From an uncultured Comamonas sp. (GTDB taxonomy: Bacteria > Pseudomonadota > Gammaproteobacteria > Burkholderiales > Burkholderiaceae_C): DNA of 64,000 bases. Location of the stretch: contig CABIIJ010000057.1 in the NCBI GenBank assembly GCA_902175065.1, positions 1 through 64,000 on the forward strand. Direction: 5' to 3'. This document shows, piece after piece, positions 45,545 to 48,945 of the stretch; the stretch's first letter is position 1, and each line of letters begins with the position of its first letter. The position numbers and the translations under genes are program-made. The notes beneath the pieces are model-generated. The model was given only the letters and a program-made list of their open reading frames with translations, was not told the DNA's origin and did not search any database.

Positions 45545-46813
45545 TCACCCCCGAAACGGCAAACGCGGCAACTGCTCCCGCAAGATGCCCCACGGACTGC
45601 GCCCGCTCAACTGCGCCACGATGGCCGCCTTCAGCGGCGGCAAATGCTGCGCCCCCTGCAACACGATCTGGCGCAGCAGCCGGGGCGCAGGGCGCGGATC
45701 GGTGAACAGCCTGACCACGGTGTTGGTCCCCTGGAACAGCGGCCAGGCGTGCCGGTGCTGGCTGCGGCTGTAGGCGGCCAGCACGCCCTCCTGCCCCCAG
45801 TCCTGGCCCGCGTGGTAGGCGCTGGCGATGGCGCTGCTCAACCGCTCCACCCCCGACAGCCCCAGGTTGAAGCCATGCGCCGTCACCGGGTGCATCCCCA
45901 CGGCGGCATCGCCCAGCAAGGCAAAGCGCGGCCCGCTGAACTGGCGGGCATAGGTCGCCACCAGCGGGTAATGGTGGCGCTGGCCGACCAGCTCCATCTC
46001 GCCCAGGCGGCTCTGGAAATGCGCCTGCACCTGGGCGGCGAAGTCGGCCTCGTCCAGTTGCATCAGGCGGGCGATGTCCGGGCTGTCGCTGGTCACCACC
46101 GCCGAGCACAGCAGGTCGCCCGTGGCCGGGTCGGGCTGCAGCGGCAGGATGGCCAGGGTGCGGTCGTAGCCAAAGCATTCGTGCGCCACGTCGTGGTGCT
46201 CCAGCGTGTGGCGCATCCGGCAGACGATGACGCTGCGGCCAAAATCCGTCATCTGCGCCCCCACGCCCAACATGCGGCGCACGGCGGAAAAGCGGCTGTC
46301 GGCCGCCACCACCAGCGGTGCGGACAGCGGCGGCGCATCCACGCGCACGCCGTTGTCCTGCACCTGGTAGTGCACCTGGACGCGATCGCCCAGGTGCTGC
46401 ACCTGCGTGACGGTGGCCTCGGTCAGCACGCGGATGGCGGCGTGGGCCTGCGCCTCCTCCCACGCCGTGCGGCGCAGGGCGCAATTGGGCACGATGCGCC
46501 CGAGCGCCTCCATGTCCTGACCCACGGTATCGATGTCCAGCGTCGGGCGCACGCCCACCGGGCCGTCGTGCACCACCGCCTGGCGGATGAAGCCCTGTTC
46601 ATGCGGCAGCAGGCGCTGCCAGGTGCCCAGGCGCTGCAGGGTCTGCACGCTGGGATGGGTCAGGGCGATTTCCCGCCCATCCGGGGCCGGATGGGCCAGA
46701 ACCGCCTGCGGCTGCTGCTCCAGCACCGTGGCGTGCAAACCGGCCTGGGCCAAAGCCAGCGCCAACGACAAACCCGCAGGCCCGGCGCCTACGATCAAAA
46801 CATCGGTATCCAT
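45545..46813 (-). CDS. ubiM: FAD-dependent ubiquinone-biosynthesis hydroxylase, UbiM-like
   Basis: 422 aa UbiH/UbiF/COQ6-family flavoprotein monooxygenase. FAD-binding DVLIVGAGPAGLSLALALAQAG at the N-terminus, and the second flavin motif LLGDAAVGMHPVTAHGFNLGL near residue 290. The HPVTAHGFN form is what I recall for UbiM rather than UbiH/UbiF (HPLAGQG). Hydroxylates the ubiquinone ring. If it is instead another family member, the reaction class stays the same. Monocistronic, divergent from minC. Confidence 0.78.
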   Translation of the reverse strand: MDTDVLIVGAGPAGLSLALALAQAGLHATVLEQQPQAVLAHPAPDGREIALTHPSVQTLQRLGTWQRLLPHEQGFIRQAVVHDGPVGVRPTLDIDTVGQDMEALGRIVPNCALRRTAWEEAQAHAAIRVLTEATVTQVQHLGDRVQVHYQVQDNGVRVDAPPLSAPLVVAADSRFSAVRRMLGVGAQMTDFGRSVIVCRMRHTLEHHDVAHECFGYDRTLAILPLQPDPATGDLLCSAVVTSDSPDIARLMQLDEADFAAQVQAHFQSRLGEMELVGQRHHYPLVATYARQFSGPRFALLGDAAVGMHPVTAHGFNLGLSGVERLSSAIASAYHAGQDWGQEGVLAAYSRSQHRHAWPLFQGTNTVVRLFTDPRPAPRLLRQIVLQGAQHLPPLKAAIVAQLSGRSPWGILREQLPRLPFRG

Positions 46814-46976
46814 AGAAGAAGGGCGTAATCAGAAGTAAAAGTCGGACGGTCAACGCGGGCCATTGTCCCCCCTTCTGCCACGCACACGGGCGCAACACCG
46901 CAAACCACCCTGCTGCGCTTGCAACAGTTACGGACATGCAAGGTACACTTGCCGCTGGTGTGCCTTTCCCCTCCCT

Positions 46977-47040
46977 TGCCTTTTCCCTGCCTTTTCCCTG
47001 CCTTTTCCCTGCCTTTTCCCTGCCTTTTCCCTGCCTTTTC
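46977..47040 (+). repeat. 11-bp tandem repeat upstream of minC
   Basis: Five perfect copies of TGCCTTTTCCC (46977-47031) plus a sixth partial copy, ending 8 bp before the minC ATG. Slippage would change promoter or leader spacing. Confidence 0.92.
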
Positions 47041-47048
47041 ATTGAGCT

Positions 47049-47816
47049 ATGGCCGTTGATTCCAAGAGCGCTGCCCGCGCCAGCTTTGACCTGAAAAGCG
47101 CCGAATTGCCGGTACTGGCAGTGGCGTTGCGCAGCACCGATGTGGCGACCGTGGTTGCCGACTTGGCCCGGCGCCTGGCCGACGACCCGGATTTTTTCGA
47201 CAACGACCCCGTCCTCATCGACCTGCACCATGTGCAGGACAGCCCCGAGGCCATCGACTTTCCCTGCCTGCTGGCCGCCCTGCGCAGCCACCGTACCCGT
47301 CCGGTGGCCGTGCGCGGCGGCTCGCCTGCCCAGATGAACGCGGCCCACGAGGCCGGCCTGGTGCCCGCCCCCGATGCCACCCTGGCCCGCCCCAAGGAAC
47401 GCAAGGCCGAGCGCGAAGTGGAAGTCGTCGTCCAGGAGGTGGAAATCATCCGCGAGGTGCCGGTGGACGTCGTGCGCCCGACCATGGTGGTGGACAAGCC
47501 GCTGCGCTCCGGCCAGCAGGTGTACGCCAAGGGCGCCGATCTGGTCGTCCTGGCCATGGTCAGCTTTGGCGCCGAGGTGATTGCGGACGGCAACGTCCAC
47601 ATCTACGCCCCCTTGCGGGGCCGGGCCGTGGCCGGCGCCCGCGGCGACACGGCGGCCCGCATTTTCACCACCTGCATGCAGCCGCAACTGCTGTCGATCG
47701 CCGGCAACTATCGCGCCCTGGAAGCCGATCTACCTGCCGACGTGGCCGGCAAACCGGCCCAGGCCCGCCTGGAGGGGGATCGGCTCATCATCGAACCCCT
47801 GGCATCCCTGACCTGA
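47049..47816 (+). CDS. minC: Septum-site determining protein MinC
   Basis: 255 aa FtsZ-ring inhibitor. An N-terminal MinC_N-like domain (FDLKSAELPVLAVALRST) and a charged linker (ERKAEREVEVVVQEVEIIREVP) are followed by the beta-helical C-terminal domain (GADLVVLAMVSFGAEVIADGNVHIYAPLRGRAVAGA in two stretches) that dimerises and binds MinD. No clear Shine-Dalgarno sequence: the region just upstream is a pyrimidine-rich 11-bp tandem repeat, so translation may be weak or repeat-dependent. First gene of minCDE. Confidence 0.95.
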   Translation: MAVDSKSAARASFDLKSAELPVLAVALRSTDVATVVADLARRLADDPDFFDNDPVLIDLHHVQDSPEAIDFPCLLAALRSHRTRPVAVRGGSPAQMNAAHEAGLVPAPDATLARPKERKAEREVEVVVQEVEIIREVPVDVVRPTMVVDKPLRSGQQVYAKGADLVVLAMVSFGAEVIADGNVHIYAPLRGRAVAGARGDTAARIFTTCMQPQLLSIAGNYRALEADLPADVAGKPAQARLEGDRLIIEPLASLT

Positions 47817-47853: not shown

Positions 47854-48666
47854 ATGGCCAAAATCATCGTAATTACCTCCGGCAAAGGCGGTGTCGGCAA
47901 AACGACCACCAGCGCCAGCATTGCCGCAGGCCTGGCACTGTCCGGGAAAAAAACCGTGGTGATCGACTTCGACGTCGGGCTGCGCAACCTCGACCTCATC
48001 ATGGGCTGCGAACGCCGCGTGGTCTACGACCTGATCAACGTCATCCAGGGCGAGGCCAACCTGAACCAGGCCCTCATCAAGGACAAGCAGTGCGACAACC
48101 TGTTCATCCTGGCCGCTTCCCAAACGCGCGACAAGGATGCCCTGACCGACGAAGGCGTCAAGAAAGTGCTGGACGATCTCGCCGCCATGGAGTTTGACTT
48201 CATCCTCTGCGACTCCCCCGCCGGGATCGAAAGCGGCGCCCTGCTGGCCATGCGCTACGCCGACGAGGCACTGGTGACGACCAACCCGGAAGTCTCCTCG
48301 GTGCGTGACTCCGACCGCATTCTGGGCATGCTCAGTTCCAAGACCGAAAAGGCCAGGAACGGCGGCAGCGTCAAGGAGCACCTGCTCATCACCCGCTACA
48401 ACCCGGCCCGGGTGGAAGAAGGGCAGATGCTCTCGATCCAGGACGTCGAGGACATCCTGCGCATTCCGCTGGTCGGGGTGATTCCCGAATCGGAAATCGT
48501 GCTGCAGGCCTCCAACCAGGGCATCCCGGTGATCCACATGCCGGATGCCGATGCAGCCCAGGCCTACCAGGACGTCGTTGCCCGCCTGCTGGGCGAGGAG
48601 CGCCCGATGCGGTTCACCGAAGCCGTCAAGCCGGGTTTTTTCAAACGAATTTTTGGTGGGAGGTAA
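47854..48666 (+). CDS. minD: Septum-site determining ATPase MinD
   Basis: 270 aa. Deviant Walker A SGKGGVGKTTTSASIAAG, switch region DFDVGLRNLDLIMGCERRVVYD (in two stretches), Walker B DFILCDSPAGIE, and a C-terminal amphipathic membrane-targeting helix (PGFFKRIFGGR). Binds the membrane in the ATP form, recruits MinC, and is released by MinE, giving pole-to-pole oscillation. Second gene of minCDE, 37 bp after minC. Confidence 0.97.
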   Translation: MAKIIVITSGKGGVGKTTTSASIAAGLALSGKKTVVIDFDVGLRNLDLIMGCERRVVYDLINVIQGEANLNQALIKDKQCDNLFILAASQTRDKDALTDEGVKKVLDDLAAMEFDFILCDSPAGIESGALLAMRYADEALVTTNPEVSSVRDSDRILGMLSSKTEKARNGGSVKEHLLITRYNPARVEEGQMLSIQDVEDILRIPLVGVIPESEIVLQASNQGIPVIHMPDADAAQAYQDVVARLLGEERPMRFTEAVKPGFFKRIFGGR

Positions 48667-48672
48667 CCCGGC

Positions 48673-48945
48673 ATGTCGATCCTTTCCATGCTGCTGGGCG
48701 AGAAGAAAAAGTCTGCCGCCATCGCCAAGGAACGCCTGCAGATCATCCTGGCCCGCGAGTGCGTGGATGGCAGCAGCGCCCCTGACTACCTGCCCGCACT
48801 GCAGCGCGAGCTGATGGCGGTGGTGTCGAAATACGTCGCCATCAACCCCGAGGACATCAAGGTGAACTTCGAGCGCCAGGACAACCTGGAAGTGCTGGAA
48901 GTGAAGGTGGAGCTGCCGGAGGCTTCGCCCTCCTCCTCCCGCTAA
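48673..48945 (+). CDS. minE: Cell division topological specificity factor MinE
   Basis: 90 aa. Membrane-binding N-terminus ([29 protein letters not shown]) and the MinD-stimulating beta domain ([25 protein letters not shown]). Starts 6 bp after minD. The stop codon overlaps the stop of the convergent flavin reductase gene by 4 bp. Confidence 0.96.

Follow-up and report, generated by a model that had tools for sequence, protein, structure and literature searches.

In Moraxella catarrhalis, uspA2 and uspA1 carry AGAT repeats and a poly-G tract, respectively, between promoter and start codon. According to the description in PMC4679880, the copy number of these repeats varies among strains and has an effect on expression. 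Direct TAACTGA repeats of Beggiatoaceae end a few nucleotides from start codons and overlap the position at which a Shine-Dalgarno (SD) sequence is expected, and the respective genes are mostly SD-less (PMC4679880). In Haemophilus influenzae, hmw1A is preceded by 13-24 copies of a 7-bp promoter repeat, and more copies lead to less transcript and less protein (PMC8262952). SD-less genes in general are widespread among prokaryotes, with a tendency toward reduced structure around the start codon (PMC5397173).

The window analyzed here, a stretch of 64,000 nucleotides from an uncultured Comamonas sp., contains an array of an 11-bp unit directly upstream of the division gene minC. The Beggiatoaceae repeats are the closest formal parallel to this array, as they are also short repeats that end next to start codons, mostly ones lacking an SD sequence; they consist, however, of one shared heptamer at about 170 sites in one genome (PMC4679880), whereas the minC array occupies a single site. 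The likeness to uspA2 and uspA1, as described in PMC4679880, lies in tandem repeats that are transcribed as part of the leader, 3' of the promoter and 5' of the start codon, a position that is putative for minC. The Moraxella loci differ in having a 4-bp or 1-bp unit, a surface protein as product and a demonstrated effect, while the Comamonas locus has an 11-bp unit and a division gene. With hmw1A the array shares the location of a short repeat upstream of the start codon, but hmw1A has a heptamer, encodes an adhesin and has a demonstrated function. Finally, bacterial minisatellites or VNTRs used for MLVA typing resemble it in their short unit, perfect copies and whole-unit differences between related genomes, with the distinction that the difference seen at minC is one between species.

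Five perfect tandem copies of TGCCTTTTCCC are located at positions 46977-47031 on the forward strand, as determined by direct reading and TRF. They are followed by a partial sixth copy, TGCCTTTTC, which comprises 9 of the 11 bases (47032-47040, forward strand; direct reading and alignment with a sister species), and by the 8-nt spacer ATTGAGCT (47041-47048, forward strand). The original prediction of five copies and a partial copy ending 8 bp before the minC start codon at 47049 was thus accurate. On the 5' side, the array is preceded by TGCCTTTCCCCTCCCT, a diverged and pyrimidine-rich stretch at 46961-46976 of the forward strand, which was recognized from a TRF row with a 16-bp period at 46961-46993 and from the alignment with the sister species, where it is nearly identical. 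This stretch is likely a degenerate relative of the 11-bp unit.

TRF assigned to the array a period of 11, 6.2 copies, 98% matches and a score of 129, as compared to a score of 57 for the second-best array in the 64 kb. The self-match of the minC leader at a lag of 11 bp extends over 53 bases; no other run in the window exceeds 13, and the maximum run in 30 simulated first-order Markov sequences of 64 kb each (lags 4-60) was 16, so that head-to-tail perfect copies are present beyond chance. In other stretches of the same genome, of which 348 kb were sampled, the longest perfect run was 35 (45-bp period; lags 2-60), which makes the array the longest perfect tandem repeat of the window and these stretches. 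A double TGCCTTTTCCC unit was found at no second site in the 3.23-Mb assembly.

The septum site-determining protein MinC is encoded at 47049-47816 (NCBIfam TIGR01222, E 2.7e-59; 200.7 bits, cut-off 95.25); downstream of it lie minD at 47854-48666 (TIGR01968, E 8.3e-106) and minE at 48673-48945 (NF010595, E 1.8e-42), all on the forward strand. Upstream, a gene for a UbiM-type ubiquinone hydroxylase is oriented divergently on the reverse strand (45545-46813; NF006593, 515.9 bits), and the array lies 163 bp from its start. Within minC itself, TRF reported an imperfect tandem repeat with a 24-bp unit and 79% matches at 47343-47393 of the window, which is probably located in the linker between the N- and C-terminal domains, judging from the expected domain position.

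The nearest genome, G016, is a metagenome-assembled genome of a sister species of Comamonas, in which the min operon is encoded on a contig of 8,791 bases (L035). Along 3.8 kb that span the leader and the min operon, it shares 93% identity with the window. Its leader reads ...CTCCCT-TGCCTTTTCCC-TGCCTTTTC-ATTGAGCT-ATG and therefore contains one full unit and the identical partial copy. The leader of the window is longer by exactly 44 bp, corresponding to four units inserted at the same site between shared flanks. The partial copy TGCCTTTTC, which both species have in common, probably represents the end that the leader had in their ancestor. Since the array copies are identical to one another while the flanks have diverged by 7-12% from the sister species, which has four units fewer, the expansion of the array is, by this comparison, recent. 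Copy numbers should be reliable in both assemblies because ordinary reads exceed the 64 bp of the array. Two adjacent units, with one mismatch allowed, were detected in 2 of 53 genomes of the genus, namely in that of the window and in G016, and a sample of 401 genomes of the family, which did not include G016, contained two adjacent units only in the genome of the window. A dispersed or mobile element is ruled out by this distribution, as the double unit occupies one genomic site and the other genomes of the family sample lack it. Scans of viral contigs gave no match to the array or to the junction on its downstream side.

A whole-unit difference at one site between relatives (five units and a partial copy versus one and a partial copy) is the pattern of a VNTR or minisatellite, here in a comparison between species only. 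In this respect, the variability and the use as a typing marker that had been proposed for the array proved partly justified: the array qualifies as a credible variable-number locus and a candidate marker, with a difference of exactly four units to the nearest relative. What is seen of the proposed hypermutability is this difference from a sister species.

Other repeats were observed as well. In the sister species, an element of 161 bp is located directly 5' of the minC TACACT box described below (L035:2774-2934, corresponding to G016:C286:4668-4828 on the reverse strand). It is bounded by 19-bp terminal inverted repeats (GGATGCTCTGCACGCATCA), and the 4-bp target CAAG appears to be duplicated. 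Relatives with about 78-82% identity are present about 16 times in the genome of the window, with none listed on the contig of the window; G016 has 18 matches, and further ones are found in other Comamonas. By these features, the element is a member of a MITE-like family. In G000, tandem repeats of 261 bp with 3-4 copies of about 90% identity are found on the contigs C8 and C9 (L128:5363-6435 and L129:1927-2736); they probably belong to a large repetitive protein that was split during assembly.

A comparison of minC loci revealed a conserved box, TACACT, that resembles a -10 promoter element and is located at 46944-46949 on the forward strand of the window, where this hexamer occurs only once in 64 kb. 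It precedes minC in 31 of 32 loci, with a position of -105 in the window and of -47 to -64 nt in 30 relatives; one relative (L063) has no TACACT at that position. In the sister species the box is located at -61, and the entire difference of 44 bp thus lies between the box and the minC start codon. TACACT is probably the -10 element, although no sigma-70 promoter of consensus type was detected by scanning. Because this box is located upstream of the array at a position conserved in relatives, the array is probably part of the transcribed leader. It lies outside the frame in which MinC is read, since the spacer contains an in-frame TGA at 47043-47045; a coding repeat is ruled out for the same reason. 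Pyrimidines predominate in the minC leader, and folding predicts essentially no structure for the array RNA, with a minimum free energy of -0.7 kcal/mol over 72 nt. A structured RNA or riboswitch was rejected on the same folding predictions (leader z = +0.97), and no intrinsic terminator was found in the leader.

Ribosome binding was evaluated as the most favorable pairing between the 3' tail of the 16S rRNA and the 22 nt that precede each start codon. In the window, minC reaches -1.9 kcal/mol, compared with -4.2 kcal/mol at minD and -11.6 kcal/mol at minE. The respective medians in Comamonadaceae are +0.6 (32 loci), -6.4 (32 loci) and -11.7 kcal/mol (18 loci). The lack of a visible ribosome-binding site before minC, which the original prediction had pointed out, is thereby confirmed: the 8-nt spacer contains no SD sequence, and absence of pairing with the 16S tail within 22 nt, conserved in orthologs, places minC among SD-less genes. 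It does not follow that the array occupies the place of a ribosome-binding site, as had been supposed. In essentially all of the 32 Comamonadaceae loci minC has no SD sequence, while minD and minE have one, and relatives without the array likewise lack it, which rules out that the repeat caused the loss. Since minC is SD-less throughout the family, the repeat has displaced no SD sequence and there is no SD spacing to alter.

The explanation that best accounts for these observations, and which is considered probable, is that of a VNTR-type array born by slippage in the transcribed, SD-less 5' leader of minCDE, with no effect or a mildly graded one. The pattern of perfect copies suggests that slipped-strand mispairing during replication produced the array. 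Transcription would start just 3' of TACACT, giving a leader of about 90 nt here and of about 50 nt in relatives. Translation of minC may then be initiated without an SD sequence on a leader that is unstructured and rich in pyrimidines, with probable assistance by ribosomal protein S1, to which the base composition points. Additional copies would lengthen this unstructured leader and be tolerated, with an effect that is absent or graded and not of an on-off type. As the array is located between the TACACT box and the start codon and no SD sequence is present, copy number would set the length of the leader, but not promoter spacing, SD distance or the MinC reading frame. The array looks like an ordinary VNTR-type locus, a slippage product in a permissive leader.

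The neutral half of this explanation can also be held by itself. A strictly neutral slippage product that serves as a typing marker only has about an even chance, and this estimate overlaps with that for the preferred explanation. Neutrality agrees with the confinement of the array to one genome, with a sister species that manages with one copy, and with the fact that the leaders of relatives otherwise vary in content and in length (TACACT at -47 to -64), although a mild tuning of expression would leave the same sequence pattern.

A contingency locus, in which frequent changes in copy number tune or switch MinC and thereby generate subpopulations with altered division, as do repeats in leaders or promoters of surface protein genes, is unlikely. 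The array is perfect, close to the start codon and different between sister species, and repeats are known to alter expression both in the leaders of uspA1 and uspA2, as reviewed in PMC4679880, and, as 7-bp units, at hmw1A (PMC8262952). However, minC belongs to the housekeeping genes, and the array is situated 3' of the probable promoter, outside the reading frame and with no SD sequence to space; its absence from relatives would make such control private to one species. With the putative promoter upstream of the array, unit changes would alter neither frame nor promoter or SD spacing. Literature searches on a minC leader repeat and on phase variation in Comamonas yielded nothing relevant. The proposal that changes in copy number alter the spacing of the minC leader therefore holds for the length of the leader, but not for promoter geometry, SD spacing or the MinC frame, which remain unaffected given the upstream TACACT box, the missing SD sequence and the TGA. 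Phase variation of division-site control, which had been named as a possible consequence, found no support, as an array between the putative -10 box and the start codon, with no SD sequence and followed by the TGA, predicts no on-off switching. It is very improbable that MinC level, and with it the placement of the division site and the length of cells, varies heritably within a population because an expandable leader repeat private to this species tunes SD-independent translation; such a repeat would constitute a contingency locus on a core division gene instead of a surface antigen.

Even less probable is a role of DNA curvature, in which the six T4 tracts phased at 11 bp would bend the DNA between minC and ubiM and affect either promoter. 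The bend predicted with the wedge parameters used is about 76 degrees, the highest in the 64 kb (median 18), and about 28 degrees for the short version of the sister species. The array is located downstream of the minC -10-like box, however, and among random 11-bp units matched in composition, 32% bend as much. The bend is thus a by-product of the 11-bp period, which explains its high predicted value, and curvature was rejected as a selected feature. The least credible alternative is a frame-dependent upstream ORF that starts at GTG or TTG in the leader and ends near the minC start codon, with copy number modulo 3 setting translational coupling: by enumeration its end shifts among -6, +8 and +43 relative to the ATG, but there is no ATG start and no SD sequence before any candidate, and the frame is not conserved and differs at the copy number of the sister species.

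If copy number proves variable, strains of this Comamonas species could easily be typed by PCR at this locus, and it would provide a natural series relating the length of an unstructured, SD-less leader to translation. The operon context extends beyond this species: throughout the 32 Comamonadaceae loci, an SD-less minC (in the window 47027-47048) is found beside SD-bearing minD and minE in one operon. This arrangement suggests differential translation within the min operon. If the translation rate of minC differs from that of minD and minE, this would bear on the stoichiometry of MinC and MinD.
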